Assembly (NCBI GenBank): GCA_028244835.1
Contig: JAOKBJ010000003.1
Coordinates: 1 to 64,000, forward strand
Reading direction: 5' to 3'
Origin: Methylophilaceae bacterium
GTDB lineage: Bacteria > Pseudomonadota > Gammaproteobacteria > Burkholderiales > Methylophilaceae
DNA length: 64,000 nt
Made by a program: the position numbers and the translations under genes. This document shows, one piece after another, positions 4,916-64,000 of this stretch. The notes beneath the pieces were generated by a model, which did no database searches, was not told the origin of the DNA, and saw only the letters and a list, made by a program, of their open reading frames with translations. Position 1 is the first letter of the stretch. Each line of letters starts with the position of its first letter.

Positions 4916-4943
4916 ATTTACTAAACTAACCAGAAGTTAACCT

Positions 4944-11422: not shown

Positions 11423-11433
11423 ATTTAAATTCT

Positions 11434-12384: not shown

Positions 12385-12388
12385 AAGG

Positions 12389-12574
12389 TTACTTTCCAAT
12401 AAATATTATAATTATGCCTATAAGAATAGATAAAAGTCCATAAAATCTAATTTGACCAGTTTTAAATTTAACCATCTTACTAAAAGTATCTTTCCATACC
12501 TCAGGCAAAGCTAAGGGAAAAATTCCTTCAAAAATCAAAACTAAGCCAAGCGCCATATATATAGTGTCTTGCAA
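12389..12574 (-). CDS. yjeT: DUF2065 (YjeT-like) small membrane protein
   Basis: 61 aa from a TTG start that aligns with the family N-terminus (MQDTIYMALGLVLIFEGIFP). It has two hydrophobic helices with PEVWKDTFSKM between. Function is unknown, but the gene is regularly found between hflC and hisZ/purA, as here. It starts directly after the hflC stop. Confidence 0.88.
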   Translation of the reverse strand: MQDTIYMALGLVLIFEGIFPLALPEVWKDTFSKMVKFKTGQIRFYGLLSILIGIIIIFIGK

Positions 12575-34252: not shown

Positions 34253-34759
34253 ATGAGTTGGTTTGTAATACACACTAAGCCAAATGAAGAGAAAAAAGCA
34301 TTGGCAAATTTAATTAACCAAGAATTTACTTGCTATATGCCAATGTATTCAAAAGAAATAATTACTAAAAAAAAGATTAAAATTACCCCATCCCCCCTAT
34401 TCCCCAGATATCTTTTTATTGAAGTGAATGATGAGTCAATCCAAAAAAATATTGGGTTAATTAGATCGACTTTAGGTGTTCATCAACTTCTTAAGATAGG
34501 GGAAAATCCAATTAAAATAAGTGCTGAGATTATTATAGAATTAAAATCAGCAGAAAAACATAGGTCTGAAAAAATAAAAAACTATTTTGAACAAGGTGAG
34601 CAAGTTGAAATTCAATCAGGGCCCTATAAAGGAATTAAAGCAATATTTGAATGTGAAGATGCAGATAAAAGAGCTATTCTATTTTTTGAACTTATGCAAA
34701 AATCAACAAAAATCTCTGTTGATAAAGTAAACATAAAAAAAATTAACAAAATTACTTAG
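34253..34759 (+). CDS. rfaH-like: RfaH/NusG-type transcription antiterminator
   Basis: 168 aa. NGN domain (SWFVIHTKPNEEKKALANLINQEF..., PLFPRYLFIEV) and a C-terminal KOW-like region (FEQGEQVEIQSGPYKGIKAIFE). Length and N-terminus fit RfaH rather than housekeeping NusG. RfaH allows RNA polymerase to complete long cell-surface operons. It lies directly next to the 29-kb polysaccharide locus and overlaps its last gene tail-to-tail by 8 bases. The operon promoter, where an ops element would lie, is beyond the window. Confidence 0.88.
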   Translation: MSWFVIHTKPNEEKKALANLINQEFTCYMPMYSKEIITKKKIKITPSPLFPRYLFIEVNDESIQKNIGLIRSTLGVHQLLKIGENPIKISAEIIIELKSAEKHRSEKIKNYFEQGEQVEIQSGPYKGIKAIFECEDADKRAILFFELMQKSTKISVDKVNIKKINKIT

Positions 34760-36599
34760 AAATTTTGTAGTCCCTAACCCACCGTTTTAATTCTTTTTTG
34801 ATTTTCATTTCATCCATGCCAGATGTCTGATTAATCCATTCAATAATTGCTTTATTTGAAAAATTTTTCTCTAAATTTGATGTAGCAGCTATTCTTATTT
34901 TTTTATGTATTGTTGGCTTAGTTAACTCGTGGTCGGCTAATAATTCTTCAAAAAGTTTTTCTCCCGGACGTAATCCTGTGAATTTTATTTTAATTTCATC
35001 TTTATGAAGCCCCGATAGGCCAATCATATCTTTAGCTAAATCTAATATTTTAATTGGCTTACCCATCTCAAGCACAAATATCTCAGCACCTAACCCCATC
35101 ATACCTGCTTGCAATACAAGTTGAGATGCTTCGGAGATAGACATGAAATATCTAGTTATATCACGATGAGTGACAGTAACTGGACCACCCATTTCAATTT
35201 GTTTTTTAAATAATGGTATTACACTCCCACTACTACCAAGAACATTCCCAAACCTTACTGTAATAAACTCAGTGCCAGTTTCAGACTGAAGGTTTTGACA
35301 TAAAATCTCTGCTAAGCGCTTACTTGCACCCATTACATTTGTTGGGTTGATCGCCTTATCTGTTGACACTAAAACAAACTTTTTAACATTAAATTTTTTA
35401 CATATATTAGCAATTATAAAAGTACCTTTTGCATTATTTATTAATACTTCTGATACATTTTCAGTTTCCATAAGGGGAACATGTTTATAGGCTGCCACAT
35501 GAAAAACCAGACTAGGTATGTGCCTATGAAACAAATCTGTAATACGCTTCTCATTTTTTATATCTGCCACAACAAAAAAAATTTTAGTTTTAGACTGACT
35601 ATAAATTGACTGTTCAAGTTGGTACAAAGCAGCCTCTGAAATATCAACGCAGAAAACAGTCTTTGGTTTAAATTTTAATACTTGACGCGTAAGTTCTGAT
35701 CCAATTGATCCTCCAGCTCCAGAAATCATGACAATATCATTTTGAATTAATTTTTTTAAGCCAGAATTATCTAAATTAACTGCATCTCTTCCAAGTAAAT
35801 CTTCAACATCAACCTGTCTGATTTGTGACACACTTAATCGACCACTACTTAAATCTTCGAAATTCGGGATAGTTAATAATTCAAGATCTAGGTCTTTAAT
35901 TATATTTAAAGCAATTTTTCTCTCTTCGAAATCAGAAGATGGCATAGCTATTATGGCAGTTTCAATCTTTAATTTTTTATATAGCTTAGGGAGCAATTTA
36001 ATATCGCCCAAAATTTTTACCCCAGATATCTCCCTACCCTTTAGTGAAATATCACTACCTAGTAGACCTAGAAGATGCCAATTTGGATTTCTTGCAAGAG
36101 TTTTGACTAAAAGCACACCTTCTTTACTAGTCCCCAAAACAATAGCATTTTTTGGTTTAATTGATGTAACACCATATTCTTTATATTCCCTTAAGCCCCT
36201 ATATATAATTCGACTTCCAAATAAGAATAATATTAAGAGTAGAGGATTTAAAATAATAATTGAGCGAGGTATTACAGGTTGCTGCGTGTAAAAAAATGTA
36301 AAGTATATGGCGAGAACTAAAGATGAGCAAAATATAGCTAAAGCTATTGTTCTTATATCAATAATACTTGAATGTCTCCATGAAGCTCTATGAATTCTAA
36401 AGCCTAGGAATATTATTACTTGAACAATTAAAGCTGCACTTAAGTTGCTCATCATTGAGATATGTTGAGCATCAGGAATTTCAAAATTAAATCTAATAAT
36501 ATAAGCAGCTATCCATGCTGAAGCAATTACAATTAAATCATGAATAAAAACAATTGAATTCCTATTTTTTACTATTAGATGTTTAATTTTATTAATCAT
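34752..36599 (-). CDS. wbpM-like: Nucleoside-diphosphate-sugar 4,6-dehydratase, WbpM/PglF type
   Basis: 615 aa. About four N-terminal membrane helices, a first Rossmann-like domain (NAIVLGTSKEGVLL), then an extended-SDR catalytic domain with GAGGSIGSELTRQ and active-site STDKAINPTNVMGASKR (the usual Tyr is replaced by Met in this family). It makes UDP-4-keto-6-deoxy-GlcNAc from UDP-GlcNAc, a precursor of bacillosamine, QuiNAc, FucNAc and pseudaminic or legionaminic acids. Last gene of the locus, overlapping wbpL-like by 8 bases. Confidence 0.93.
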   Translation of the reverse strand: MINKIKHLIVKNRNSIVFIHDLIVIASAWIAAYIIRFNFEIPDAQHISMMSNLSAALIVQVIIFLGFRIHRASWRHSSIIDIRTIALAIFCSSLVLAIYFTFFYTQQPVIPRSIIILNPLLLILFLFGSRIIYRGLREYKEYGVTSIKPKNAIVLGTSKEGVLLVKTLARNPNWHLLGLLGSDISLKGREISGVKILGDIKLLPKLYKKLKIETAIIAMPSSDFEERKIALNIIKDLDLELLTIPNFEDLSSGRLSVSQIRQVDVEDLLGRDAVNLDNSGLKKLIQNDIVMISGAGGSIGSELTRQVLKFKPKTVFCVDISEAALYQLEQSIYSQSKTKIFFVVADIKNEKRITDLFHRHIPSLVFHVAAYKHVPLMETENVSEVLINNAKGTFIIANICKKFNVKKFVLVSTDKAINPTNVMGASKRLAEILCQNLQSETGTEFITVRFGNVLGSSGSVIPLFKKQIEMGGPVTVTHRDITRYFMSISEASQLVLQAGMMGLGAEIFVLEMGKPIKILDLAKDMIGLSGLHKDEIKIKFTGLRPGEKLFEELLADHELTKPTIHKKIRIAATSNLEKNFSNKAIIEWINQTSGMDEMKIKKELKRWVRDYKISK

Positions 36600-43363: not shown

Positions 43364-44245
43364 TTATTTAAATTTATATTGCTTTAATTTTTCTTTTCTT
43401 GTTAGCTTGTAAGCATCAAGACCAATTGATTCTTCTCCAGGCCTTGGAAGAACATAAGCAACAACCTCTTCAAGAAAGCCCATTCTAACTCTAGCATTAT
43501 AAATTCTAAGGACTAAATCAATATCCCAAACTTGATTCCAATCCTTACGCCAGCAATTTAAGTTATATTTCATTCCTTTTAAATAAGATCTATATAGCCA
43601 TGTTGAAACACCACCAATTTTTGAGCTATTTATGCTAGTAGTTCTTGTGTAATAATTATCTAGAGCCATTCGCCCTTGGACTACTTTTCTTTTTCCAAAA
43701 CGTTCTTCTTCGTAAAGGCCGGAAACAAATTCATAATCCCCGTCCATAGCAAATGTTAAGAGTTTTTCAATATGGTCTTTTGTCCATGTGTCGTCGTCAT
43801 CCAATCGGGTTATCCATGATCCAGCAGCTAAATCCATAGCTTTGTTAGCAGGAGCAGCCCCGCCAACAAACCAATGATTTTCAATATTTTGCGGATAACG
43901 TCTTTCTCTTTTTTTCATATTATAGAATTTTAATCTTGGATCTTTTATTCGGGATAATAATTCTTCCGTATCATCAGTGCAACAATCTCCAACAACAATT
44001 AATTCGATATTTTTATACGATTGAGACAATGCTGATTTTACTGCTCGCTCAATTAAGATTGATCCTCTATTAAAAGTTGGTACACAAATACTTACGAGTG
44101 GTTTTTTGTTTGTTTGTATATAATCTTTTTCGAATCTTAAGCGTGCATATTTAACCTTGATTGGTTCTGTAGCCGCAAACCAAAAATTATTAAAGTGTGA
44201 TATTAATTTATCATTAATAGTTCGCTTGCAATTATTAACGGACAT
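43364..44245 (-). CDS. Glycosyltransferase family 2
   Basis: About 293 aa. A leading 50 residues precede the GT-A core ([29 protein letters not shown] as the DxD). ATG at 44245 has a GGCGGT upstream and is preferred; the ATG at 44257 has none. Both lie within the end of the SDR gene, whose frame is different. Donor unknown. Confidence 0.88.
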
Positions 44246-44936
44246 ATTGACCGCCATTTAAATCAATGCAAGCGCCATTTAGGTGACTCCAATGGTCTTC
44301 GCATAGATCATAAATAATTTTAGCTAAATCATCTTGATTCAATAACTTGCCAGAATTTACTTGTTTCTTGTGGGATTCTTGCCTATCAAAAGTCATATTC
44401 TTAAACATTGTGCTATCTTGAACTAACCCAGGTGCAATAGCATTAATAGTAGCTCCAGTAGGTAGGCTTGGCAATACTGACTTAACAAAAGAGAGCAACG
44501 CTCCCTTTGAAGCTGCATAAAAAGGATCATAGCTACCTTTTTGACCTGATATTGAAGACATTAAAAGTAGTTTTGATTTTGTTGATAGCAAAGGAATTAT
44601 ATTTCGAATTAACTTTGCTTGGCCAGTAAAGTTAATTGATAGAACCTTATCAATCTCTTCAAAAGTATATTCCAATAAATTTTTGCCAGGTAGAATACCA
44701 ACTAATGAGATTAAAATATCAATAGTAATTTTTTCTGAAATTAATTTTTCAGAAAATTCAATAATACTTTTATTATTATCTAAATCAACACAAAATAATT
44801 CATTATTCTTGGAGGTATTAGCAGGGCTACCCTCTGAAAAATAAGTTGATATAATTTTATTATTTTTATTATTAAATTGATTAAAAATTGCTTTTCCAAT
44901 GCTTGAAGATCCGCCTAAAATAACAATTGTTCTCAT
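44235..44936 (-). CDS. Short-chain dehydrogenase/reductase
   Basis: 233 aa classical SDR. ILGGSSSIGKAIF cofactor motif, SSISGQKGSYDPFYAASKGA with Ser-Tyr-Lys, and the C-terminal [14 protein letters not shown]. It may belong to the nonulosonate block. It overlaps the GT2 gene at its 3' end. Confidence 0.88.
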   Translation of the reverse strand: MRTIVILGGSSSIGKAIFNQFNNKNNKIISTYFSEGSPANTSKNNELFCVDLDNNKSIIEFSEKLISEKITIDILISLVGILPGKNLLEYTFEEIDKVLSINFTGQAKLIRNIIPLLSTKSKLLLMSSISGQKGSYDPFYAASKGALLSFVKSVLPSLPTGATINAIAPGLVQDSTMFKNMTFDRQESHKKQVNSGKLLNQDDLAKIIYDLCEDHWSHLNGACIDLNGGQYVR

Positions 44937-44941
44937 AATAT

Positions 44942-46087
44942 TTACCTTAAAGTTTTGCCATGTGAATTAACCCCAATAATGCTAAGGGATGCATCTTTGA
45001 AAATTTTTCCAGTATTGCTTTCAATCCAAGTCAAAATATCAGAAGCATAACGTGGAGCACAAATAACTAATAGATCTGCCTGTAAAAAATTTTCAACACA
45101 TTTTATGGGCTGACTTACCCCAATACCATCTAATATTAAATCGTCTTTTCGACGAGGATCAGAATCAACAACAATAGCTTTATCTGAAAATTTATAATCT
45201 TTAATTAAGGATCTAAGAAGGTCTGTTACCCCCCATAAAATAATTTTTTTACCATCCTTGGTTAATTGATTCATTTTCTTTCTTAAATTAGTTAAATGAA
45301 TATCGTTATTATGAATTTGTTTTAAAGCCCCGGCTATGTATTTCCTCGCCTCAATAAATTCGTTTTTATATTCTTTTTTACAAGGTATATCTACTCCCTC
45401 TTTTTTAAATATGGCCACAAATCCATGTGGCCTACTGGCATTATTATCGGTGTCAATAAGACTGAAGCCAATCTTCTCGGCAATTAAATTTAAAGAAGAG
45501 ATTGTGAAATGATTAACATGATCAGGCTCTTGGAGAAGGAGGTTGTCAGGGTAAAGCTTTAAATTAGGTACTTCGCAAATCATAACTCCTCCTCGCTTTA
45601 AAGCACTAAAGCAATTTAATAGAAATTGCTTTATATCTAGGACATGCTCTAATACATCATAATGAGATATTACATCAACTGATTCATTTAAAGTATTGAT
45701 ATCAATAGATTTATTTTTTAAATCTTTAGTAGCTTCAATTGAGTGTAGTTGGTTGAAATATTTACTACATCTTCGGTGAAACTCCCCTGGAGCATCTCCT
45801 CCAATTTCAACAAAAATTCCATCTGGGACTTTATATTTGTCTAGAATTCGAAGTCTTTCTTCAATTGAATAAGGTAAACTTATTTCCTTATAGCTAGTAT
45901 TTCCATCCCCATAATATTTCATTAGATCATCACTATTCGGACTTGGTGATGAAAAACAAAATCCACAATTACGACAAATGGAAACGTTTACTGGAAACTC
46001 CCATGTGCTTGAACTTTTAACAATAATACTTTTATTTGACCACATTAATTCTAGGTCTGAACCACCACAGCAATTACATAATCTCAT
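44942..46087 (-). CDS. Methyltransferase with N-terminal zinc site and C-terminal Rossmann-like domain
   Basis: About 381 aa from ATG at 46087, which places the CNCCGG zinc motif at residues 4-9; a TTG at 46123 with AAAGGA upstream is an alternative. Zinc-binding ligands CNCC...CRNCGFC, a SAM-binding central part (VEIGGDAPGE, SHYDVLEHV) and a C-terminal Rossmann-like domain with ILWGVTDLLRSL. The architecture matches sugar C- or O-methyltransferases of the TylC3/NovU kind. Target not assignable. Confidence 0.82.
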   Translation of the reverse strand: MRLCNCCGGSDLELMWSNKSIIVKSSSTWEFPVNVSICRNCGFCFSSPSPNSDDLMKYYGDGNTSYKEISLPYSIEERLRILDKYKVPDGIFVEIGGDAPGEFHRRCSKYFNQLHSIEATKDLKNKSIDINTLNESVDVISHYDVLEHVLDIKQFLLNCFSALKRGGVMICEVPNLKLYPDNLLLQEPDHVNHFTISSLNLIAEKIGFSLIDTDNNASRPHGFVAIFKKEGVDIPCKKEYKNEFIEARKYIAGALKQIHNNDIHLTNLRKKMNQLTKDGKKIILWGVTDLLRSLIKDYKFSDKAIVVDSDPRRKDDLILDGIGVSQPIKCVENFLQADLLVICAPRYASDILTWIESNTGKIFKDASLSIIGVNSHGKTLR

Positions 46088-46127
46088 TTCTGTTTGAAGG
46101 TGAATTATTTTATTTTTTGGCAATCTT

Positions 46128-46823
46128 TCAATTCCTTTTTTTAAACAAATATTCAGCAAATTCAAAATCAATCAATGTGTCTATGTCTAATGATGTTTCT
46201 TTCTTAACAATAACTTGTCGAACTCGACCTTCAAACATATTCTTTTTGTTTAAAACAAAAGATGGTCTTGCTGCATAAGCAACGGTTGTAATATCAAATG
46301 TTTTAGGGCAATCCTGTCTTCTACTTATAACTTTCTTACTCGGCATAAATAAGTCAACATACCCATTTAACCCTTCTTTTACGATATTAAAAAAAGGGCT
46401 TCGATATGGATCAGTAACAGTAATTACCATATCAGTATCATTTTTTTGATATTCATCAATTACATTATTAATATCTTCAACATCTCTTAATGGGGCTGTA
46501 GTAGGTATAGATAGCATTAAATCAGGGAGGCATCCATCAGTAATTTTAAGATATTTTAATCCATGCTGCCAAGAAAGCCATTCTGGTGATTCGTCAGTTG
46601 CTAACTCCAAAGGTCTCATAAAAGGAACCTCAGCACCATATTCCTTTGCAATCCTAGCTATTTCATCTGAGTCAGTTGAAACTATAACTCTACCAATCCT
46701 ATTTACTTTTTTTGCATGCTCAATTGACCAAGCTATAAGAGGCTTTCCATTTAAAATCTTTATATTTTTATCAGGAAGACCTTTTGATCCACCTCTAGCA
46801 AAAATGAAAGCAGTAATATTCAT
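46128..46823 (-). CDS. neuA-like: CMP-nonulosonate (NeuA-like) cytidylyltransferase
   Basis: 231 aa. N-terminal nucleotide-binding ARGGSKGLPDKNIK, STDSDEIARIA and the LSIPTTAPLRDVEDI segment are hallmarks of acylneuraminate cytidylyltransferases. It activates a nine-carbon keto-sugar acid to its CMP form. Overlaps the downstream methyltransferase if its upstream TTG is used, and overlaps the Gfo/Idh gene by four bases. Confidence 0.92.
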   Translation of the reverse strand: MNITAFIFARGGSKGLPDKNIKILNGKPLIAWSIEHAKKVNRIGRVIVSTDSDEIARIAKEYGAEVPFMRPLELATDESPEWLSWQHGLKYLKITDGCLPDLMLSIPTTAPLRDVEDINNVIDEYQKNDTDMVITVTDPYRSPFFNIVKEGLNGYVDLFMPSKKVISRRQDCPKTFDITTVAYAARPSFVLNKKNMFEGRVRQVIVKKETSLDIDTLIDFEFAEYLFKKRN

Positions 46824-47812
46824 TTAACCTTTACCCTTTTCCCAGAAGAAGAAGCATCTTTAATGCTTTCTACAATATTTAAAACTTCAACGCCATCTTG
46901 AAAAGAAATCATCGGGCGTTCTTTTTTATTTACACATTCAATAAAATGCAACCACTCTTCTTTATAGCTTTGGTCTAGATTGGTCTCACCTTTATATACA
47001 TTCTTCCATCCATCACTATTTGCTTCGAATAAGTCAACCTGATCGTTCAACCCATTCCACCTTAAGCTTCCTTTCTCACCAATTACATGGCACATTCTAA
47101 CCTTATCGTGCCGAATAAAATCTAAACTTAATGATGCAACTAAATTAGTATTTTTAAACGCTATAAGGATATTTACATTATCTTCCACATCAATATCAAG
47201 CATACTTTGTTTGCTTAATTGAGCTTGAACAAATTCTACATCACCAAAAATCCACCTCAAGTAATCTAATTCATGGCTAAGTTCAAGCAAAACACCACCT
47301 CCAAGAATTTTTTGAGCTGAAACCGTCTTTCTGTAATCTTTATCTCGCCAACTTGGCAGATATTGTCCCACCTCACTTCTAACAGAATAAAGATTTCCAA
47401 TAAAATTATCATCTATCAAGTCCTTAAACTTGTTCAATGAAGAAAGGTATCGTAAATTATATCCAACCATTAATACACAGTTATTTTTCACTGCTTCATG
47501 ATTTAACTCCTCTAAGCCTTCATGTGTGTTTGATATTGGTTTTTCAACTAGCACATGCACACCCGCCTGAACCAAAGCTAAAGAAATTTCAACATGAGTC
47601 GATGCAGGGCCACAAACAATAGCTATTTGAGGGTTAAATTGCATTACATCACTTAAAGCAAAGAATACTTTATTAGCTCCTTTTGGGATTTCTTTAGTTT
47701 CTTGATGTCTTAGAATTGCAATCGTACTATCTGGAAAAATCTCTCTAGCAATTCTTGAATGTCTTAACCCAATACTTCCGAGACCAACAATTAATATTTT
47801 TTTAATGCTCAC
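46820..47812 (-). CDS. Gfo/Idh/MocA-family oxidoreductase, nonulosonate block
   Basis: 330 aa. NAD(P)-binding ILIVGLGSIGLRHSRIA, EKPISNTHEGLEEL and the LELSHELDYLRWIFG catalytic helix. Similar genes accompany NeuA/NeuB in several glycan loci, where their role is not fully settled. The ATG is 8 bases after the aminotransferase fusion gene. Confidence 0.9.
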   Translation of the reverse strand: MSIKKILIVGLGSIGLRHSRIAREIFPDSTIAILRHQETKEIPKGANKVFFALSDVMQFNPQIAIVCGPASTHVEISLALVQAGVHVLVEKPISNTHEGLEELNHEAVKNNCVLMVGYNLRYLSSLNKFKDLIDDNFIGNLYSVRSEVGQYLPSWRDKDYRKTVSAQKILGGGVLLELSHELDYLRWIFGDVEFVQAQLSKQSMLDIDVEDNVNILIAFKNTNLVASLSLDFIRHDKVRMCHVIGEKGSLRWNGLNDQVDLFEANSDGWKNVYKGETNLDQSYKEEWLHFIECVNKKERPMISFQDGVEVLNIVESIKDASSSGKRVKVK

Positions 47813-47820
47813 AGGGTTTT

Positions 47821-49278
47821 TTATTTGAACCTTTCTAACTCATTTATAACAATTTGTGCAATATGATCAATCTCATCAAAAGTTAGCCCTGGTGAAGATG
47901 GAAGGTTAATTGTAGAAGTACCTAAGAATGATGAAATTGGATAATCGCTTCCATTAGAATATTTCTGATAAGGTGGCATTTTATGTAAAGGATAAAATCC
48001 TGGTCTTGCATCGATTCCCCTATCGCTTAGCGCCTTTAATAATTTGTCTCTTTTTTTCTCAGTAAATTCACTTACTACAAGTGTGTATAGCCAATAAGAA
48101 TTTTCTGACCAACTGTTCTTTGGTAACAATAATAACTGGCTATTTGATTTAAAATTTTTATCGTACCTTTGAAAAACATTTTTTCTTTTTAATAAAAAAT
48201 TATTTATTTTTTTAAGTTGAGCGACACCAATTGATGCCTGCATATTAGTCATTCTAAAATTAACGCCAGCAAATTCATGCCAATACTTTTTTTGCGGACT
48301 CATTCCATGATCCCTCATAATTTTTGCTTTATCAGCTGTTTTTTTATCCTTAAAAACTACCATACCACCCTCTCCAGTAGTGATTAGTTTATTAGCAAAA
48401 AAACTAAAGCAAGTAGCATCACCATCTCTACCTATCAATCTTTTCTTGTAAGTTCCGCCAAGGGCCTCTGCGCAATCCTCTACAATATGTAAATTATTAT
48501 TTTTAGCGATTTTGTTAATTTCATCTATATGTGCTGATTGTCCATACAAGTGGACAGGCATAATTGCTTTTGTATTTTTATTTATTGCTGCCTCAATAGC
48601 TTTTAAGCTTAAAGTCCATGTTTCAGGATCAACATCTACAAGGACTGGAATGGCGCCAACATGAATAATTGCATTTATTGAGGCTCCAAAAGTAAAATTT
48701 GGAACTATAACTTCATCATTGGCTCCGATATCTAAAGCCAACATACCTAACTGTAAAGCTGCCGTTCCACTTGAGACAGCAACAGCATGGCCACCATTTA
48801 AATAACCACTAAAACCAACTTCGAATTCCTTAATAAATCTTCCTTGTGAAGATATCCATCCAGTATTTGCACATTCTAGAAGATTGTTAATTTCTTCGTC
48901 ACCGATATCAGGCTGTAATATTGGAAATTTCCTTACACGTGAAGAAGTTGAAAAATCAACCACATTCATATCATTATCCACCAAAGGTACGCATTTAATA
49001 TTGTGATGAAATAGAGTCCAAATTTCACTTATCTGGCAATCAAAAGGAAGGTAATGTGGTTTTTTATTGTAGAAATCTGAATTTTTTTCGATCATTTTAG
49101 GTAAAGATGTTTCTTTTAAAATAACTCTTCGTGAATCGCCATCTGAAAATGAACCTATCAATTTCTTATTGGAATCAATAAAAAATATGATTCCTAACCC
49201 ATTTATTTCAATAGTTTTAAGAGCTTCTTTGAAGTCTATAGGTAGCTCAACAAATAAATTATCAATATTAATTTTCAT
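47821..49278 (-). CDS. CBS-domain / DegT-family aminotransferase fusion
   Basis: 485 aa, about 110 longer than a standard DegT/DnrJ/EryC1 enzyme. Residues 1-115 read like a CBS pair: FKEALKTIEINGLGIIFFID...GSFSDGDSRRVILK, then LPFDCQISEIWTLFHHNIKCVPLVD. This resembles the CBS module normally fused to PtmE-type nucleotidyltransferases of legionaminic acid loci. Residues 116-485 are a PLP aminotransferase with SSGTAALQL, EDCAEALGG and Lys297 in FFANKLITTGEGG. It likely aminates a 4-keto sugar for the NeuB pathway (LegC/PseC-like). The fusion is unusual. Confidence 0.9.
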   Translation of the reverse strand: MKINIDNLFVELPIDFKEALKTIEINGLGIIFFIDSNKKLIGSFSDGDSRRVILKETSLPKMIEKNSDFYNKKPHYLPFDCQISEIWTLFHHNIKCVPLVDNDMNVVDFSTSSRVRKFPILQPDIGDEEINNLLECANTGWISSQGRFIKEFEVGFSGYLNGGHAVAVSSGTAALQLGMLALDIGANDEVIVPNFTFGASINAIIHVGAIPVLVDVDPETWTLSLKAIEAAINKNTKAIMPVHLYGQSAHIDEINKIAKNNNLHIVEDCAEALGGTYKKRLIGRDGDATCFSFFANKLITTGEGGMVVFKDKKTADKAKIMRDHGMSPQKKYWHEFAGVNFRMTNMQASIGVAQLKKINNFLLKRKNVFQRYDKNFKSNSQLLLLPKNSWSENSYWLYTLVVSEFTEKKRDKLLKALSDRGIDARPGFYPLHKMPPYQKYSNGSDYPISSFLGTSTINLPSSPGLTFDEIDHIAQIVINELERFK

Positions 49279-50126
49279 TTTATATTTAATTTTAATTTAG
49301 TAAGTTTGCGCTGCTCTAGCAATAGATTTATATCTGGACTATACACCTCGATACTAATATAATTTATTGAAGGGTTAATGTACCTCCAAAACCATGCTTC
49401 TGAATTAAAAGGGTTGTTAGTGTCAGATAAGCCATTATTATCACTTAAATGGTAGCCACCAATCCTATTCTCACACAATTGGAACATCTTCTTAGGGTTA
49501 TAGTTTAATGAATTCGCGGATACTTTTAAATGGGCTACATCAATTAATAGTTTTACACCCTCTGGAAGATTATTAAGCAACTCATTACATTCTTCAGGGG
49601 CGCACATTAATAATGGATTACTACTAAATTCTAGAGAGTTATTTTTTGATAACACATTATTTTCAATCATAAGGGTGATGCCTAAATTTTTTGCAATTTC
49701 ATACAATTTTTTTACCCTTGAAACAAATAATTCTTTAGATTTATCTCTATTATATAATTTTCTATCAGCAATCTTTTTTCCAAGCTCATTTACGCCAGGA
49801 TCTAATAAAAAACCAGCATGAAAACTATAATGATCAGATCCAATTATTGAGCACCACTCAAGTGCTTTTAAAACATGTTTGTAACTCCTCTCTCCAACTT
49901 CAGCATCTAATGACCCTAAATTTAATACAAATGGTTTTTCAGGTGGTGGAAAATAATTATGAATTTGAAAATTAACTTTTTGAGAGAGAACAAGAATTTC
50001 GTCTAACAAGCTTTTCGAGTGCATGCCCCCAGATAATTCAATATCTTTTATTCCATAGGAAAATAATTCTTCTGAAAATTGAGCAGCTGTTTTATTTTTA
50101 ATTCCGCCTGTAGATATATATATCAT
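49275..50126 (-). CDS. Sugar phosphate isomerase/epimerase-like TIM-barrel protein
   Basis: 283 aa of the AP-endonuclease-2/xylose-isomerase-like family. Likely metal ligands: HAGF near residue 104, MIENN, LIDVAHLKVS and GYHLSDNN. In nonulosonate loci such proteins may isomerise or epimerise a sugar precursor, but the reaction is not established. Overlaps the fusion gene by four bases (ATGA). Confidence 0.85.
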   Translation of the reverse strand: MIYISTGGIKNKTAAQFSEELFSYGIKDIELSGGMHSKSLLDEILVLSQKVNFQIHNYFPPPEKPFVLNLGSLDAEVGERSYKHVLKALEWCSIIGSDHYSFHAGFLLDPGVNELGKKIADRKLYNRDKSKELFVSRVKKLYEIAKNLGITLMIENNVLSKNNSLEFSSNPLLMCAPEECNELLNNLPEGVKLLIDVAHLKVSANSLNYNPKKMFQLCENRIGGYHLSDNNGLSDTNNPFNSEAWFWRYINPSINYISIEVYSPDINLLLEQRKLTKLKLNIK

Positions 50127-50141
50127 ATTGATTTTATAATG

Positions 50142-51152
50142 TCACAATTCAATTATTTGATCTTCGTTAAAATCTTTTTTTGCTTTTTGTCCGATTACTT
50201 TATTCCAATTAATTGGAGATATTCCTTTTCCAGAACGTTTTGCAATAATATTAGAACTTGTAAATAACTCTCCAGACTTAATAAATTTAGAGGCAACAAT
50301 AAACTTTCTTGCAATATTAATATTCTTTATTTCACTAGTAGAGGGATTTTTTTTTCCGTCTCCTAGCGCCTTTTCTATTCTACGAATGCCATCAATCATC
50401 ATGGTTAATTCATTAGGCTCTAAGCTAGATTTGTGGTCCGGCCCTTCCATATTTCGATCCAAAGTAAAATGTTTTTCAATTACGCTTGCGCCAAGAGCGA
50501 CTGCTGAGATTGGGACAACAATTCCTTCAGTATGATCTGAGTATCCAAATTTAAGATTAAACTCTCTACCAAGTGTCTTCATTGCTAGTAAATTTACTTC
50601 ATCAATCGGACAAGGGTATTCTGAAGTTGCATGCAAAATAGTCAAATCAGTTTTATCAACACCTTCGTTAAGTAATATTTTTACTGCTGACCTAACCTCT
50701 TCCAATGTTGACATACCAGTTGATAAAATTACTTTCTTGTTTAATCCTGCAATTTTTTTAAGGTATGGATAGTTAGTTATTTCACCGCTAGGGATTTTAA
50801 AAATAGGAAGTTTTAAACTATTAAGCAAGTCAATACTTTCATGATCAAATGGAGTTGATAAAAATATAATATTATTATCACAATACTTAATAAGTTCGTA
50901 ATGAGCATTTTTATCTAACTCAAGACTTTTAATCATTTCAAATTGAGATTCATCATTTGTAGTATTTTTCTTTTGGTAGTCCGCCTTCTCCATGCCTTTG
51001 CAAACTAAATTTTCAGCTTTAAAAGTCTGAAACTTTACTGCATCTGCTCCAGAACTAACTGCAGCATCAACCAATTTTTTTGCAATTTCAACTGAACCGT
51101 TATGATTAACTCCAGCTTCTGCAATAATAAATGTTTTATTAATATGTTTCAT
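50142..51152 (-). CDS. neuB-like: NeuB-family nonulosonic acid synthase
   Basis: 336 aa. N-terminal TIM barrel with IAEAGVNHNGSVEIAKKLVDAA, AVKFQTFKAENLV, KIPSGEITNYPYLKKIA and GYSDHTEG; C-terminal SAF (antifreeze-like) domain from about residue 280 (ARKFIVASKFIKSGE...). It condenses phosphoenolpyruvate with an amino sugar to give a sialic-, legionaminic- or pseudaminic-type acid. Which one depends on unseen specificity. One-base overlap with the neuD-like gene. Confidence 0.94.
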   Translation of the reverse strand: MKHINKTFIIAEAGVNHNGSVEIAKKLVDAAVSSGADAVKFQTFKAENLVCKGMEKADYQKKNTTNDESQFEMIKSLELDKNAHYELIKYCDNNIIFLSTPFDHESIDLLNSLKLPIFKIPSGEITNYPYLKKIAGLNKKVILSTGMSTLEEVRSAVKILLNEGVDKTDLTILHATSEYPCPIDEVNLLAMKTLGREFNLKFGYSDHTEGIVVPISAVALGASVIEKHFTLDRNMEGPDHKSSLEPNELTMMIDGIRRIEKALGDGKKNPSTSEIKNINIARKFIVASKFIKSGELFTSSNIIAKRSGKGISPINWNKVIGQKAKKDFNEDQIIEL

Positions 51153-51766
51153 TAACCCGTAAACCTTGATTTATCTTTAAGATCTTTCCTAATAGACAGA
51201 CCCATACCAATTGTACAATTCTTACCAATTGAAATATTATCTTTAACGCACGTTGAGCTACCAATAAAAGTTCCTGAACCAATCTTTACATTTCCATTTA
51301 ATGTAGAATTTGTTGAAATATGACAGCCATCTTCAATCTGAACATCATGCTCAATTAATGCTCTTGAATTAATTATACAACCATCACCAATTCTAACTCC
51401 TGCATTAATTATCACCCCATGCATAATGATATTTCCTTTTCCAATATCAGCATGCTTTGAAACATAAGCGTTAGGTGAGATAATAGTTGGGATGATAAAG
51501 CCTAGAGCTAATACTCTGCTATAAATATTATTTCTTTTGTCTGTATCAATCTGTCCAATTGCAATAAGAGCATTTTTATATTGCTTAAGTAATTCGGATA
51601 AATCTTTATCTACTCCAAAAACCCTGTGTCCGCAGACAATCTTTCCTAACTCCTCTTCAATCCCAATCAAGCCAGCAATTTTAAATTTATCTTGCTGCTC
51701 TATAATATCAATACAAGATATTGCATGACCGCCCGCTCCTATTAGTATTATTTCTGATTTACTCAT
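51152..51766 (-). CDS. neuD-like: NeuD-like sugar O-/N-acyltransferase
   Basis: 204 aa. N-terminal Rossmann-like half (IILIGAGGHAISCIDIIEQQ) and C-terminal left-handed parallel beta helix with hexapeptide repeats (IGKGNIIMHGVIINAGVRIGDGCIINSR...). It acetylates the amino sugar or nonulosonic acid. The gene directly precedes the synthase. Confidence 0.92.
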   Translation of the reverse strand: MSKSEIILIGAGGHAISCIDIIEQQDKFKIAGLIGIEEELGKIVCGHRVFGVDKDLSELLKQYKNALIAIGQIDTDKRNNIYSRVLALGFIIPTIISPNAYVSKHADIGKGNIIMHGVIINAGVRIGDGCIINSRALIEHDVQIEDGCHISTNSTLNGNVKIGSGTFIGSSTCVKDNISIGKNCTIGMGLSIRKDLKDKSRFTG

Positions 51767-58388: not shown

Positions 58389-59666
58389 TTAAAGTAATGA
58401 GGCGCAAGCGCCCTTCGATTTCTTATGGTTAGAACGTAAACTAAGGGCAAGATTTCCAATTCTTTTTGCACACTGGCCATCGTGACGATATAACCAATCA
58501 GAAACTAACTTATCACGAGTATGCTTATGCTTATTGATCAAAATTGTGTGTTTAGATATTGAAACAAGTTTAAAAATATCACGAATCTCCTCGGGAGAAG
58601 CTGGAGCAAAAACAACACCAGTATCGATGCAAGTATTACTCCAAACCCAACCAGGAAAAGCAGGACAAACAACAAGTTTGTCTAACAATATTGCATCCAT
58701 AGCCGTCGTTGATCCGAAAGAAACAAAGCAATCACATATCTTGGTTAGAGGTCGAATGTCTTGCTTTTGATCAATAAAGATAATGTTAGGATTATCTGAG
58801 GCAAATGACTTAGTTTCATTTTGATTCTCTTCAGGATGAGCTTTAACAATGAGATAGACATTTTTAAAACTGTCTACGGAATCAAAAACTGCCCTTTTCA
58901 TTGCCTCAAGAAGCTCAGCATCATTATTAAGCTTATTATAACTTCCTAATATAAAAGTAGAAGCAAGCAATATTATGCGGGCATTTTTAGGAATACCAAA
59001 TTTCTTCTTTATAGATTTAGCTTCAGAATCACTAGAATTAAATAAGCTATCACTTCGTGGCGCTCCAGTCACAAATATTTTATCAGAAGCAATACCATGT
59101 GAGATCAGAGTCTTTTTGAAATGTTTTCCCCACACAGCCACACAATCTGCGGGGAAAAAACGCCATTCAATTGCGGCAGAGTTAGTCAGTCCATGTTGTA
59201 GAGCTAAACAAGGGATTTGTAAATTCTTACATTGCAGCAAATAAATTCTAGTCCGTGGATCATGAATGTCAGTAGCAATTACTAATGAAGGGCGATGTTT
59301 TTCTAGAATAAATTTAGAAATTACACCTTGTCTAATTAATGTCGAGAGTTCGCCAATGAATAATCTATTCAAGGCTCGCTGAATACTTTTTTTAAAGCCT
59401 GGCGCGCTAGTGTCAATAATTTTTTCCAAAGCTTTTGAGTTATTAAAATTTTTCTTAATCAACTTTAATTGTCTATTTAAAATGCTTGTCTTTAAACTTA
59501 ACTCATCATTCCAAAAATCCCATATTGTTCTGCGCAATTCGTTAGAATTTAAAGTACCCTCAGCAATTGGCCATTTTCTATCTCTAAGTGACATTATTTG
59601 CATATTTTTTTGATCAGCAAGATAGCGTATAACCGGCTGCATTACATCACGACTCTGCTGAGGCAT
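58389..59666 (-). CDS. Capsule/surface polysaccharide transferase-like protein, start uncertain
   Basis: 425 aa from the first ATG. The C-terminal region (KFGIPKNARIILLAST, LIVKAHPEEN, CFVSFGSTTAMDAILLDKLVV) resembles the GT-B fold of CDP-glycerol glycerophosphotransferase and capsule-export proteins such as KpsC/S. Upstream, about 110 more in-frame codons encode a plausible N-terminal domain but contain no ATG, GTG or TTG (next entry). So the chosen start is only the first canonical one, and the natural protein is probably about 535 aa or is an N-terminally damaged relic. Confidence 0.78.
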   Translation of the reverse strand: MPQQSRDVMQPVIRYLADQKNMQIMSLRDRKWPIAEGTLNSNELRRTIWDFWNDELSLKTSILNRQLKLIKKNFNNSKALEKIIDTSAPGFKKSIQRALNRLFIGELSTLIRQGVISKFILEKHRPSLVIATDIHDPRTRIYLLQCKNLQIPCLALQHGLTNSAAIEWRFFPADCVAVWGKHFKKTLISHGIASDKIFVTGAPRSDSLFNSSDSEAKSIKKKFGIPKNARIILLASTFILGSYNKLNNDAELLEAMKRAVFDSVDSFKNVYLIVKAHPEENQNETKSFASDNPNIIFIDQKQDIRPLTKICDCFVSFGSTTAMDAILLDKLVVCPAFPGWVWSNTCIDTGVVFAPASPEEIRDIFKLVSISKHTILINKHKHTRDKLVSDWLYRHDGQCAKRIGNLALSLRSNHKKSKGACASLL

Positions 59667-60032
59667 AAATTCAAGACAAAGAATTCTATTAGATAAAGAT
59701 TTTCCATTATATCTATCACTATGCTTATAAAGGTGTACAAGGTCTCGAATAAAGTATTTTGATTTAACAAGAATAGGTTTAGTTAATTGTGTTAAGAATT
59801 CACTGTAACCACACTTACCAAAGGCAGATGGTATATAACGACTTGCTAATTCAGATGCAAAAACATCCCAATAAGGTATACCGTCAATTGTTAGTGATTG
59901 AGAAAGTGATCGTCCGTCAGAAAGTATGGCGCTACCAATTGATTTAACAATCTTTTCAGATCGAAAAATAACGTCATCAATATGAGGAATATTTTTTTTT
60001 AAATTTTTAATGTTGATAAAGCTTCGAATGCA
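59667..60032 (-). other. In-frame coding-like extension without a canonical start codon
   Basis: The frame of the gene at 58389-59666 stays open to a TGA at 60033-60035. All 122 codons lack ATG, GTG and TTG. The section from about 59990 reads as ordinary protein, for example SLTIDGIPYWDVFASELASR and GKCGYSEFLTQLTKP. The colD-like gene ends at 59999, inside an A9 tract on the coding strand. Possible explanations are a rare ATT start, slippage at the A9 tract, a sequencing indel, or loss of the start codon. Confidence 0.65.
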
Positions 60033-61171
60033 TCACTGATTGAGTAATGCTGATTACCAATAAACAATCCATGTTTATCAAGATATTCAGCATTTTTTAA
60101 ATCGCCATAAACCTCATAATCAAAAAATTTGATAACTTCATTTTTAAGAAAATTACCAGTTACAATTGGCCTAATTTCAAATCCTAAATGATTTAACTTA
60201 TTCACTAATTCTTTTCTTGTTAAAGAACTGTCCGGCCTAATGATAATACTAAAACCAAACCAACTACTCATTCCAACTTCTTTTTGAATTAGTAAATCAG
60301 AGTGGTTAAATAAAGTTTCTACAAATAATTTAGCATTTTTACGTCGCTCAGAAATGATTATAGGTAATTTTTTAACCTGTTCAACACCTAATGCTCCTTC
60401 AAGCTCCAAGGGTCGAACATTATAGCCAGGCAACACAAACCGGAAAGACTCTTCGAGTAAGTCCTCGCTTTTATCATCGCAAATTAAATTTTTGACTGGG
60501 AGGTCACGTGTCCACCCATGCGATCTTAGAGAAATAAGTATTTGATATAACTCTTCATCATCTGTAACTATTGTCCCGCCCTCCATAGTTGAAATATGAT
60601 GGCTATAAAATGAACTAAATGTACCCATTACTCCAAAAGTTCCAGCCTTTTTATTATTAAATGTTGCCCCCATTGATTCGCAATTATCTTCCAATAAAAT
60701 TATATTCTTTTCTTGTATTATTCTATTAATAAAATCAAAATCATTTGGATTTCCAAGCAAGTTAACTGCTAAAACTACCCTTGTTTTATTTGTAATTGCT
60801 GACTCTAACTGAGCTAAATCATAATTAAGTGTTTCGATATCTATATCAACAAACTTGATTTTTAAACCATATTGATAAAGAGGATAATAAGTAGTGCTCC
60901 AAGATACAGCTGGGACAATAACCTCATCCCCTCTTTTTAATTTTAATTTAGAATTTTTGGTATAAAAAAGAGCTGCGATCATTAATAAGTTTGCAGATGA
61001 TCCTGAATTTACCATTACAGCATGATCGCTACCAATATACTTTGAAAAGTTTTTTTCAAATAACTTTACATGTTTACCCATAGTGAAATCGCCTGATGCA
61101 ATAACATTTTGCATCGCATCAATTTCTTTTTGATCCCAAGTCGTTGTTGCTAGTGGATATTTGAAGCTCAT
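59999..61171 (-). CDS. colD-like: ColD-like GDP-4-keto-6-deoxymannose 3-dehydratase
   Basis: 390 aa, DegT-fold PLP enzyme. In place of the Schiff-base lysine it has His-His (residues 191-192, FSSFYSHHISTMEGGT), the hallmark of 3-dehydratases such as ColD, whose length is also close to 390. EDNCESMGAT and NVRPLELEGA are the other family motifs. With gmd and an Fcl/ColC-like gene directly upstream it should convert GDP-4-keto-6-deoxymannose to the 3,6-dideoxy product en route to GDP-L-colitose. The overlap with the upstream reductase gene is four bases. Confidence 0.9.
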   Translation of the reverse strand: MSFKYPLATTTWDQKEIDAMQNVIASGDFTMGKHVKLFEKNFSKYIGSDHAVMVNSGSSANLLMIAALFYTKNSKLKLKRGDEVIVPAVSWSTTYYPLYQYGLKIKFVDIDIETLNYDLAQLESAITNKTRVVLAVNLLGNPNDFDFINRIIQEKNIILLEDNCESMGATFNNKKAGTFGVMGTFSSFYSHHISTMEGGTIVTDDEELYQILISLRSHGWTRDLPVKNLICDDKSEDLLEESFRFVLPGYNVRPLELEGALGVEQVKKLPIIISERRKNAKLFVETLFNHSDLLIQKEVGMSSWFGFSIIIRPDSSLTRKELVNKLNHLGFEIRPIVTGNFLKNEVIKFFDYEVYGDLKNAEYLDKHGLFIGNQHYSISDAFEALSTLKI

Positions 61172-62100
61172 TTAGCCATCTCTTTTAAATAAAATTCATA
61201 CGTTTTTTGAAGCCCATCTTCAAGACTTGTCTTTGGATGCCACCCTAACTTAGTTTGTATATCTATATTAACTACCTTACGTATCATTCCTACCGGCTTA
61301 GTTGTATCATGGGTTAAGGCTCCATTAAAACCAATAACTTTAGCTACTTTTTTATAATATTCATCAATTGTTATATCAACACCTAACCCAATATTTATAT
61401 ATTTAGGCAACTCATCAAATTTATTGATTGACCAAATTAGTGCGTCAGCTAGATCACCTGCATACATAAATTCACGCCGCGCCATACCATCACCCCAGAC
61501 TTCAACTTCGTTTGCATCATTTTTTTTTGCCTGATGAACCTTGTGAATTACTGCTGCAACTAAATGCGAATAATCATCTTGAAATTTATCAAATTTCCCG
61601 TAAAGATTGCATGGTATTAAGGTTTTATAAATAAAACTACTATCTTCATTTGACACATATTCACATAATCGTGCTGTAGCTAATTTTGCAATTGAATATC
61701 CCTCATTGGTTTCCTCTAATTTTCCTGTCATAAGCATATCTTCTTTAAGGGGCTCAGAAATATTGGCTGGGTACATGCAAGAGCTACCAATATTAATTAA
61801 CTTTTTAATTCCTGATTTATAAGCAGCCATAACAATATTTCTGCCCATATCTAAATTATCTACTAAAAAGTTTACGGGCTCCCTCAGGTTTGCCTGAATG
61901 CCACCTATTTTTCCAGCTGCATGAATAATCATCTCAGGTTTGTATTTTAAAAGATAATTTTCTACCTTTTCAAAATTCCGAAGATCTAACTCATTTGATC
62001 TGGGTGAAATAATATCGTACGAAGATATACCTGGATGTTCAAGCAAATTTTGGCCAACCATGCCGCCGGAGCCAGTCAATAAAATAGTTTTTTTAGGCAT
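61168..62100 (-). CDS. colC-like: Fcl/ColC-like GDP-sugar epimerase/reductase
   Basis: 310 aa extended SDR. GSGGMVGQNLLEH cofactor motif, AAGKIGGIQANLREP, INIGSSCMYP, and the catalytic NEGYSIAKLA. It is in the GDP-L-fucose synthase family. Beside a ColD-type enzyme it is more likely the ColC step producing GDP-L-colitose, although fucose synthase activity cannot be ruled out. Confidence 0.9.
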   Translation of the reverse strand: MPKKTILLTGSGGMVGQNLLEHPGISSYDIISPRSNELDLRNFEKVENYLLKYKPEMIIHAAGKIGGIQANLREPVNFLVDNLDMGRNIVMAAYKSGIKKLINIGSSCMYPANISEPLKEDMLMTGKLEETNEGYSIAKLATARLCEYVSNEDSSFIYKTLIPCNLYGKFDKFQDDYSHLVAAVIHKVHQAKKNDANEVEVWGDGMARREFMYAGDLADALIWSINKFDELPKYINIGLGVDITIDEYYKKVAKVIGFNGALTHDTTKPVGMIRKVVNIDIQTKLGWHPKTSLEDGLQKTYEFYLKEMAK

Positions 62101-62108
62101 ATAAAAAG

Positions 62109-63194
62109 TTACTCATTGTAATCAGGGGTTCTATAACCATGTTTTTTGGTTAATTCATCTCTTTGAGCTGCGCTAAGATCTTCTTGAACCATCTCTGAAA
62201 CTAAGGAATTAAAGTTAATCTTTGGTTTCCAGCCTAACTTCTTCATTGCTTTTGATGCGTCACCAAGAAGCGTTTCAACTTCAGTTGGCCTGTAATATCT
62301 TGAATCAACAGCGACTATTATGTTCCCCGATGAATCGTAACCTTTTTCATCCTTACCTTTTCCTTTCCAGGTTATTTTAATATCTAATTCTTTTGCTGCT
62401 GCATTTACAAAATCGCGCACGCTGTATTGAGATCCGGTTGCTATGACAAAATCTTCTGGTGTTTTTTGTTGAAGCATTAACCATTGCATTTCAACATAAT
62501 CTTTTGCATGCCCCCAATCACGTAAAGCGTTCATATTTCCAAGATATAAACAATCTTGAAGTCCTAATTTAATCCTAGCCAAAGCTCTGGTTATTTTTCG
62601 TGTTACAAATGTTTCGCCTCGCATTGGGCTCTCATGATTAAACAAAATACCATTACAAGCAAAAATACCATACGCTTCTCGATAATTTACTGTTATCCAG
62701 TGTGCATATAATTTAGCTGCCGCATATGGACTTCTTGGATAAAATGGCGTTGTTTCTTTTTGGGGTGTTTCTTGAACCAAGCCATATAGCTCGGATGTTG
62801 AGGCCTGGTAAAATTTAGTCTTTTTTTCCAAACCTAAAATACGAATTGCCTCAAGTATTCTAAGAGGTCCCAAAGCATCAGAATTAGCTGTGTATTCAGG
62901 CTCTTCAAATGAAACAGCAACATGGCTTTGTGCTGCTAGGTTATAAATTTCATCTGGCTTTACCTTTTGAATAATTTGAGTAAGACTTAGTGAATCAGTC
63001 ATGTCTCCATGATGTAGATGAAATGGTCTTCCTTTTTCATGTGGGTCATGAAATAAATGATCAACTCTTGAGGTGTTAAAAGAGGAACTTCGGCGTTTCA
63101 TGCCATGCACTTCATATCCTTTGTCTAATAAAAATTCTGACAGATAAGCTCCGTCTTGTCCTGTTACACCTGTAATTAAAGCAATTTTAGTCAT
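62109..63194 (-). CDS. gmd: GDP-mannose 4,6-dehydratase
   Basis: 361 aa from ATG at 63194, with AAGGA six bases upstream. N-terminal [17 protein letters not shown], the STSELYG(L) active-site Ser/Thr, and [15 protein letters not shown] with catalytic Tyr and Lys. [17 protein letters not shown] is diagnostic of Gmd. It makes GDP-4-keto-6-deoxymannose, the branch point for fucose, rhamnose, perosamine and colitose. Eight-base overlap with manC. Confidence 0.96.
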
Positions 63195-64000
63195 TTGTAT
63201 TCCTTCCATAGTTATCTTCTATACGCTCAATATCATCTTCACCTAAATATTCTCCTGATTGCACCTCAATTATCTCTAAAGGTATCTTCATCGGATTAGA
63301 TAATCGATGTAACTCTCCTAATGGTATAAAGGTAGACTCATTTTCTGTCAATACGACCTCTTTATCGCCATTTTCTACTTTAGCAGTCCCTTTAACCACT
63401 ACCCAATGCTCGGCTCTTTTTGAATGTTTTTGAAGGCTCAAGCTTGCCCCTGGATTAACCTGGATTCTTTTAACCTTAAAATTTTTCCCTTCATCAATGG
63501 TCATATACCAACCCCATGGCCGATGCACTTTTGAATTGTAAACACCTTCAGTTCTTTTTTTCGAATTAAGCTTGTTAACTATATCTTTAACGCCCTGACT
63601 ATTATTTCTGTTTGCCACTAAAACAGCATCAGCAGTTTCTACAATTATAATATCTTTCACTCCAACTGCCCCTACCAGCCTATGGGTCGAATGTATAAAT
63701 GAATCTTTCGTGTCTTCAGTAACCACATCTCCATGAGTTACATTACCCTTTTCATTTTTATCTTCAAAAGACCATAATGAATCCCATGAGCCTAAATCAC
63801 TCCAGCCCGCATTTAGAGGAACTACTTTAAGAGGAATACCGGCAGCATTGCACTTCTCAATGACTGCATAGTCAATTGATTCACTTGGTATTTTGGAAAA
63901 ATTTTCTTTGTCAGGCCTAATAAACTGATTATCTTTTATGTTTTTTTCGAAAGCATTTAAGGTTGCCTCAAAAATATCCGGACTTAAAGACCTTATTGTA
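63187..64000 (-). CDS. manC: Mannose-1-phosphate guanylyltransferase / mannose-6-phosphate isomerase, partial
   Basis: The 3' part of the gene, open through the window edge; about 270 residues visible. It contains [11 protein letters not shown] and the [17 protein letters not shown] end of the guanylyltransferase domain, then [13 protein letters not shown] and the cupin-like isomerase domain with [18 protein letters not shown]. It supplies GDP-mannose to Gmd. The transcription start and any RfaH-dependent ops site must lie beyond base 64000. Confidence 0.95.

Follow-up and report, generated by a model that had tools for sequence, protein, structure and literature searches.

The minus strand of the window, the whole stretch of 64,000 nucleotides from a marine bacterium analysed here, carries an open reading frame at 47821..49278 that starts with ATG and runs uninterrupted for 485 amino acid (AA) residues, encoding a fusion of a CBS pair (residues ~1-118; 48925..49278) to a DegT/DnrJ/EryC1/StrS aminotransferase domain (47824..48924), hereafter CBS-DegT. 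The gene belongs to a row on this strand with the order NeuD-NeuB-TIM-[CBS-DegT]-MocA-cytidylyltransferase-methyltransferase-SDR-glycosyltransferase, and the shared strand together with gaps of -44 to +15 bases suggests that the genes from NeuD to the glycosyltransferase are probably one operon. Upstream of the fusion are a NeuD/PglD-type sugar N-acetyltransferase (51152..51766; TIGR03570, 196.1 bits, cut-off 160.8), a NeuB-type nonulosonate synthase (50142..51152; TIGR03569, 500.5 bits, above the cut-off of 399.65) and a xylose-isomerase-like TIM-barrel protein of 283 AA (49275..50126; PF01261), the module partner of CBS-DegT. Downstream are a Gfo/Idh/MocA oxidoreductase (46820..47812; family matches), which we take to be PtmF-like by position, a CMP-nonulosonate cytidylyltransferase (46128..46823; PF02348), for which the nearest NCBIfam model is PseF, matched below its cut-off, a methyltransferase-domain protein (44942..46171) that is kept in congeners, and a short-chain dehydrogenase (SDR; 44235..44936; family match), presumably PtmA-like by position. 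The names PtmA, PtmE, PtmF, LegB, LegC and LegG are used here for the roles that we assume to lie behind them. No LegB, LegC or LegG homologue lies beside the fusion in this operon, and a search of the window's genome (81% complete) for the NeuC/LegG family gave no match above the cut-off, with a weak one at 58770-59129.

Elsewhere in the window, the gene at 34752-36599 presumably encodes a WbpM-type UDP-GlcNAc 4,6-dehydratase. An RfbH-like DegT, below the RfbH family cut-off, is followed at ~61-63 kb by genes that we take to encode GDP-fucose synthase and GMD, and with this row (59999-63218) the island would contain a second route to deoxysugars. A small SRP RNA (4821-4918, plus strand) and a tRNA (2525-2611, minus strand) were found with Rfam near the left end.

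Two loci picked from among the congeners for carrying a homologous locus, L048 (genome G004) and L049 (genome G002), have flanks homologous to those of the window, with identities in L048 and L049, respectively, of 96% and 66% for the ABC transporter, 77% and 74% for NeuD, 72% and 69% for MocA and 79% and 71% for the cytidylyltransferase, and of ~72% for the methyltransferase. In both, LegB-like and LegC-like genes sit between the ABC gene and NeuD, while NeuB (53-55%), a NeuC/LegG-like gene, a CBS-nucleotidyltransferase and an amidotransferase-like trio lie between NeuD and MocA; such neighbourhood labels (NeuC, LegB, TIM and the like) come from purpose-built small HMMs and BLAST rather than a curated library. 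Because the flanks are orthologous and the contents differ, the TIM and CBS-DegT genes of the window occupy the place of the relatives' legionaminic-type set, in what looks like cassette exchange within a surface-polysaccharide island. The trio (L048:7731-10468, and in L049) consists of amidotransferase-like, HisF-like and HisH-like genes, a combination known from the making of acetamidino groups, and none of them is in the window's operon. Its 435-AA protein in L048 gave no Pfam match, and we take it to be amidotransferase-like partly from its annotated homologues in L060 and L063.

Two domains in one reading frame

The initial annotation had described about 115 residues with CBS-like repeats ahead of a complete PLP aminotransferase with its lysine, and both parts of this reading stood up. 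The aminotransferase part belongs to the DegT family, as evidenced by a PF01041 match at residues 124-477 (400.7 bits against a cut-off of 19.8) and by the PLP lysine Lys297 (48388-48390) within SFFANK (residues 292-297), which is invariant across a six-sequence alignment. The LegC-family model TIGR04181 gave 336.9 bits, below its cut-off of 420 bits, so that by this model the enzyme does not qualify as LegC. Its best solved relatives in a PDB sequence search are proteins called perosamine synthetases (E 7e-95); these align only from query residue 116 onward, and across all 57 distinct solved sequences that the full-length query matched, no alignment extends into the residues before 103. The enzyme thus resembles LegC and the perosamine synthetases in its complete, lysine-bearing DegT domain, but differs from them in the LegC score and in the N-terminal part that the solved enzymes lack. 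Pfam found no nucleotidyltransferase domain (PF00483) in the window protein, which is therefore not PtmE, whereas the congener protein has this domain; nor did Pfam find an SIS domain (PF01380), so that the protein is not KdsD, and a separate protein with SIS and CBS domains is encoded in the same genome.

Detection of the CBS part by Pfam was marginal. PF00571 matched residues 68-107 with 22.2 bits, below the curated cut-off of 24, and CBS-DegT was not among the matches of a whole-genome PF00571 search, while six of eight intact relatives scanned passed the cut-off (33.7 to 47.8 bits). However, the NCBIfam model kpsF (KpsF/KdsD family) matched residues 13-107 (E 9.6e-7), a profile built on six CBS-DegT-type proteins found many solved CBS proteins, and AlphaFold2 modelling of residues 1-123, the structure prediction that had been proposed as a check, gave a CBS pair (pLDDT 92.5, pTM 0.84). 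Matches of this model to CBS pairs cover residues 2-123, and the first and second in the PDB by Foldseek are 4o9k (E 4e-8) and 3k2v (E 7e-8), the CBS pairs of arabinose-5-phosphate isomerases (KdsD). The kpsF match, the six-sequence profile and the AlphaFold2 model settle the point left by Pfam: by predicted fold and sequence profile, residues 1 to ~118 are a two-repeat CBS pair (Bateman module).

PLP enzymes with a CBS pair have a precedent in cystathionine beta-synthase, which is described as a fold type II enzyme controlled by a C-terminal CBS pair with AdoMet as effector (PMC9081730); the CBS pair of the window protein is N-terminal.

Recurrence and origin of the fusion

No description of a CBS-DegT enzyme was found in the open-access literature searched, nor was any paper containing both 'CBS domain' and 'legionaminic', in line with the initial annotation, whose author knew of no described enzyme of this kind. 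The architecture is not a one-off, however, as the fusion was collected in 32 distinct loci, all of which carry a NeuB-type synthase gene on the stretch concerned; known parts are here in a recurrent combination for which we found no description. Eleven of these loci have NeuC and 21, including the window, have the TIM gene without NeuC; none has both and none has neither (L071, a copy of L043 on the same contig and the source of one TIM-scan query row, was left out). For the 11 NeuC-type loci the fusion, rather than NeuC, was the search criterion, and their link to NeuC is therefore not built in; most of the TIM-type loci were collected through TIM, the window, G159 and Azospirillum being exceptions. 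That the fusion arose by accident in a single genome, or through faulty gene prediction, might be read from the 24 same-genus genomes searched, where nothing matched over both parts, and from the TIM partner gene, present in one of 31 genus genomes, the window's own. Against this stand the uninterrupted frame and the same domain order in 32 distinct loci; this recurrence refutes an accident, which we regard as practically out of the question. Since it is present in 31 other distinct loci, plus L163, the fusion is confirmed as real and not an artefact of a single assembly.

The fusion was found in at least 3 of 41 relatives' genomes (the own genome, G029 and G040), in at least 5 of 369 genomes of the class, with domains confirmed, and in at least 5 of 398 of the phylum, where a sixth is degraded, the own genome being counted each time; the class-level figure is a lower bound, as one query sequence was used. 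CBS-DegT also occurs on plasmids, in Azospirillum, Roseovarius and a rhodobacterium. Five of the 12 plasmid records that reached 80% coverage were inspected (H1, H2, H4, H11 and H14), and the E. coli plasmid match H4 was rejected, since its annotated DegT is unfused and follows gmd, and what looked like coverage of the N-terminus extends into gmd. The match listing of Citrobacter H3 is identical to that of H4. Two further candidates were not counted among the 32. In L095, the CBS part scores 21.1 bits and so stays under the cut-off. In L062 (S. fredii; 11875-13365) the DegT is extended at its N-terminus, but Pfam gives no CBS match in the extension, which also lacks the DGD motif, and neither NeuB nor TIM was matched in the vicinity. 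The neighbours of this DegT include GHMP kinase and GlcNAc-2-epimerase-like genes, and its extension may be a degenerate form of the CBS module that lies away from NeuB loci.

The trees, that of NeuB included, were of a quick kind without bootstrap, and for both AU tests, once the first tree was known, five rows (one duplicate and four long branches) were removed and L062, L095 and L087 were placed in the groups. In the DegT trees the NeuC-type fusions form one clade (100, starred) inside a set with unfused LegC-position enzymes (99, starred); it is these NeuC-linked fusions, and not the window's enzyme, that cluster with the LegC-position enzymes. The window's DegT groups instead with two SAR11 fusions and with L087, a TIM-linked enzyme without CBS (99, starred). 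This nested position suggests that CBS was likely lost in L087 and that catalysis may proceed without need of the CBS part. The AU test speaks against all CBS-DegT fusions having arisen once (p 0.019) but does not reject one origin for the TIM-linked ones (p 0.587). Together with the CBS-nucleotidyltransferase found at the same place in the two congeners, the result against one origin of all fusions fits the domain shuffling proposed earlier. The tree of the CBS domain itself is poorly resolved, with 8 of 48 inner branches starred, the domain being too short to date transfers.

A shared motif in the CBS modules

PtmE of the Campylobacter legionaminic acid pathway, attributed to Schoenhofen and colleagues in 2009, is said to join CBS to a nucleotidyltransferase. 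The initial annotation had likened the window's CBS part to this module, now moved to an aminotransferase in a nonulosonate locus, and the likeness is borne out by a common DGDxRR motif, which reads DGDSRR at residues 46-51 of the window protein (49126..49143, minus strand) and is a signature shared by KdsD, PtmE-like and other ulosonate-pathway CBS modules. Like PtmE, the window protein carries this module at the N-terminus of an enzyme of a NeuB locus, and two congeners have a CBS-nucleotidyltransferase between the orthologous flanks; unlike PtmE, its catalytic domain is DegT, and its operon has the TIM-barrel gene and no LegB/LegC/LegG homologue beside the fusion. KdsD/KpsF/GutQ arabinose-5-phosphate isomerases, which belong to an ulosonate pathway with a CMP-activated product, likewise have a CBS pair with TDGDLRR, and 4o9k, 3k2v and 3fna are among the nearest folds; their CBS pair follows an SIS domain, whereas that of the window precedes DegT.

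In the own genome, two of five CBS proteins (four found by Pfam, with CBS-DegT added) have DGDxRR, namely KdsD and CBS-DegT. When Pfam-CBS matches were sampled across 12 genomes of the class, among them the own one, the motif turned up in 13 of 13 distinct KdsD and in none of 31 other CBS proteins. This sample comprises 30 loci that are the best matches listed and 20 that were hand-picked, most of the latter being 280-410 AA frames. A protein was called KdsD if BLAST matched it to the SIS portion of the own-genome KdsD, and the 31 others are a manual count that leaves out duplicates and antisense frames as well as L124, whose frame was not assigned. A TDGDLRR-type motif is found at the same place in the solved KdsD CBS pairs, of which we take 3k2v and 4o9k to hold CMP-Kdo. 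Among fused modules, DGDxRR is present in 31 of 32 CBS-DegT, 10 of 10 CBS-nucleotidyltransferases, three of three CBS-GHMP kinases (two confirmed by Pfam, the third near-identical in the tree), the single CBS-NeuB-TIM and one of two CBS-dehydrogenases, the exceptions being the CBS-DegT of L084 (TEGDIRR) and the CBS-dehydrogenase of L085. In 46 modules, which between them have six kinds of catalytic partner, invariance is limited to G47, D48 and R51, with D46, R50 and P98 close to it; most modules read TDGD[LIV]RR and that of the window SDGDSRR. Since CBS labelling relied on an HMM made from modules that carry the motif, and loci L091-L104 came in through a CBS profile, selection is biased toward the motif; counts from the TIM-seeded loci and the Pfam-seeded sample are less subject to this bias.

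These counts bear on what the module senses. It might be an ordinary adenine-nucleotide (energy) sensor that tunes sugar synthesis to AMP/ATP, and by fold this reading fares well: the KdsD pairs, with VIA Z scores of 13.4 (4o9k) and 13.1 (3k2v), are tied with several other CBS pairs, and AMP-bound 4gqy (12.5) and ATP-bound IMPDH 7pmz (12.7) lie within the tie limit of 1 from 4o9k. The absence of DGDxRR from all 31 other CBS proteins of the Pfam-seeded sample, set against its near-constant presence in CBS-DegT and CBS-nucleotidyltransferases, and the tie to one pathway class, which is not expected of a general energy sensor, make it improbable. The motif and the closest folds, tied as these are by Z score, favour a CMP-ulosonate over a free nucleotide as the predicted ligand, and the effectors AMP, ATP or CMP named in the initial annotation were too unspecific. 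Its interpretation is partly borne out and can be given a narrower form.

A structural role in oligomer assembly or in contact with TIM, NeuB or NeuD, or a ligand-free remnant, would explain why the window's module is divergent and under the Pfam cut-off, and would agree with L087, which has no CBS, with the L062 N-extension and with the low score of L095. But the most conserved residues of the 46 modules make up the charged DGDxRR loop, kept across unrelated catalytic partners, and we give this explanation little credit. A predicted sensor for the CMP-activated end product remains our preferred reading of the module.

Such a sensor would not be universal. NeuB and a CBS module occur together in 43 loci. 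In 42 of them the module is single, and L086 has two modules along with two NeuB genes; L075, L077, L078 and L080, however, combine one module with two NeuB genes, so that 'one per cassette' does not hold strictly. The NeuB loci L074, L083, L087 and L088 have no CBS module, their TIM gene being accompanied by a CBS-less DegT, which indicates that feedback is not general.

The TIM-barrel partner and a possible pathway

Absence of NeuC and presence of the TIM gene, neither of which the initial annotation mentions, are at least as unusual as the CBS-DegT fusion. The TIM protein belongs to the xylose-isomerase-like TIM barrels (PF01261, 49.2 bits against a cut-off of 31.1), and in 27 sequences E155, D196 and H199 are invariant and H226 is at least 90% conserved. 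A PDB sequence search gave a best E of only 0.34, whereas a fold search with the AlphaFold2 model (pLDDT 96.4) gave matches, with 3wqo as a D-tagatose-3-epimerase/xylose-isomerase-type barrel (Z 26.0, 2.4 A over 245 residues) and YcjR (6wn6) among the Foldseek matches. It shares the fold of the D-tagatose 3-epimerase-like and YcjR-type epimerases, but at ~20% identity at most among the matches listed, and is found with NeuB. From the modelled fold it may act on a free sugar as an epimerase, on a 3-keto sugar as YcjR, or otherwise; no described function of this gene was found.

The gene is present in 1 of 31 genus genomes, the own one, and in 2 of 300 of the order, own included; the other, G907, repeats the set as NeuB-NeuD-TIM-CBS-DegT-cytidylyltransferase. 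Scanning a species-genome collection gave at least 25 loci, a lower bound because an exact match to either of two short peptide patterns was required, from Pelagibacteraceae, SAR116, Gammaproteobacteria, Planctomycetes, Desulfobacterales, Marinimicrobia and Flavobacteriales, among others. CBS-DegT accompanies TIM in 19 of these 25 TIM-seeded loci, a CBS-dehydrogenase in two and DegT without CBS in four; NeuB is present in 24 (the exception, L085, is a short contig) and NeuC in one, in a second cassette. Gene fusions of NeuB-TIM (L097) and CBS-NeuB-TIM (L102) tie TIM to the NeuB step. In the NeuB tree, the window's NeuB groups with those of L067 and of the congeners (93), and the larger set around them (95, starred) comprises 16 NeuC-linked and two TIM-linked sequences. 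This position within a mostly NeuC-linked set suggests that TIM can replace NeuC while NeuB remains of the same kind.

From these data, we consider the chances about even that CBS-DegT is a PLP-dependent sugar aminotransferase under feedback control in the making of a nonulosonic (sialic-acid-like) acid, with the CBS pair as the sensor of the CMP-activated end product. DegT would add an amino group to a 4-keto sugar, which NeuD would then acetylate, and the TIM-barrel isomerase/epimerase would stand in for the hydrolysing 2-epimerase NeuC/LegG in supplying the substrate of NeuB. Through the DGDxRR loop, the CBS pair would bind the CMP-activated end product and turn the aminotransferase down, so that an early enzyme of the pathway would be controlled by its product; we infer a position at the pathway entry or an early step.

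The substrate could be of another kind, as the closeness of the DegT domain to perosamine synthetases makes a GDP-linked 2-hydroxy sugar also possible. A perosamine-synthetase-type enzyme would act on GDP-4-keto-6-deoxymannose, and the product of the locus would be a 5-hydroxy (Kdn-like) 7-amino nonulosonate that needs no N-acetyl-sugar 2-epimerisation. Besides the solved relatives, this is consistent with a gmd-linked enzyme 40% identical to that of the window, with the putative GMD and GDP-fucose synthase genes mentioned above, and with the TIM fold, which is that of D-tagatose 3-epimerase-like proteins and xylose isomerases acting on 2-hydroxy sugars. It is countered by the clustering of the window's NeuB with those of the congeners' legionaminic-type loci (support 93 and 95) and by the putative WbpM-type dehydratase gene, and appears to us rather unlikely. 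As it concerns the substrate, it is compatible with either view of the CBS part.

Returning to end-product control, modules of this kind are found on a nucleotidyltransferase, DegT, a sugar dehydrogenase, a GHMP kinase, NeuB-TIM and, in the Kdo pathway, KdsD. The recurrence of the fusion and this range of partners suggest a portable end-product sensor, and the picture would be of one movable sensor per pathway, on an enzyme taken as early, with feedback by the CMP-sugar end product as the simplest common denominator. In its full form, the DGDxRR CBS pair would be a portable sensor of CMP-ulosonic acids, repeatedly joined to the carbon-committing enzyme of each pathway (the SIS isomerase for Kdo, the nucleotidyltransferase, two DegT lines, the nucleotide-sugar dehydrogenase, the GHMP kinase and NeuB), and the window would in addition hold an undescribed NeuC-less cassette, with a TIM-barrel isomerase/epimerase in place of the hydrolysing 2-epimerase; we offer this combined proposal tentatively, at somewhat less than even chances. 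If true, one motif would predict CMP-sugar end-product feedback across Kdo, legionaminic and related pathways and mark the controlled step in each new cluster, and it would provide a defined allosteric switch for surface-sugar engineering. The recurrent NeuC-less NeuB-TIM-CBS-DegT cassette, which ranges over several marine plankton lineages and other phyla up to Flavobacteriales, would indicate a way of making sialic-acid-like sugars that has gone unrecognised.

Several further arrangements were seen in these loci. The CBS-dehydrogenase fusions (L085:4816-6522 and L086:10855-12561), of the UDP-glucose/GDP-mannose type, lie directly after the TIM gene. CBS-GHMP kinase fusions (L096:8907-10406, L097:8903-10399 and L098) come from genomes of 7-8 Mb in another class of the same phylum, and in L097 the next gene (10403-12340) is a NeuB-SAF-TIM fusion. 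In L102 (7472-9805, minus strand), a single frame of ~750-777 AA combines CBS, NeuB, SAF and xylose-isomerase-like TIM domains. TIM-barrel genes with an HNYFP motif are found in NeuC-less NeuB loci of several phyla (49275-50126 in the window; L065-L089 and L163). In two SAR11 single-cell contigs the NeuB frames are split or shortened (L083:7462-8492 and L087:9297-9989), being errors or pseudogenes.
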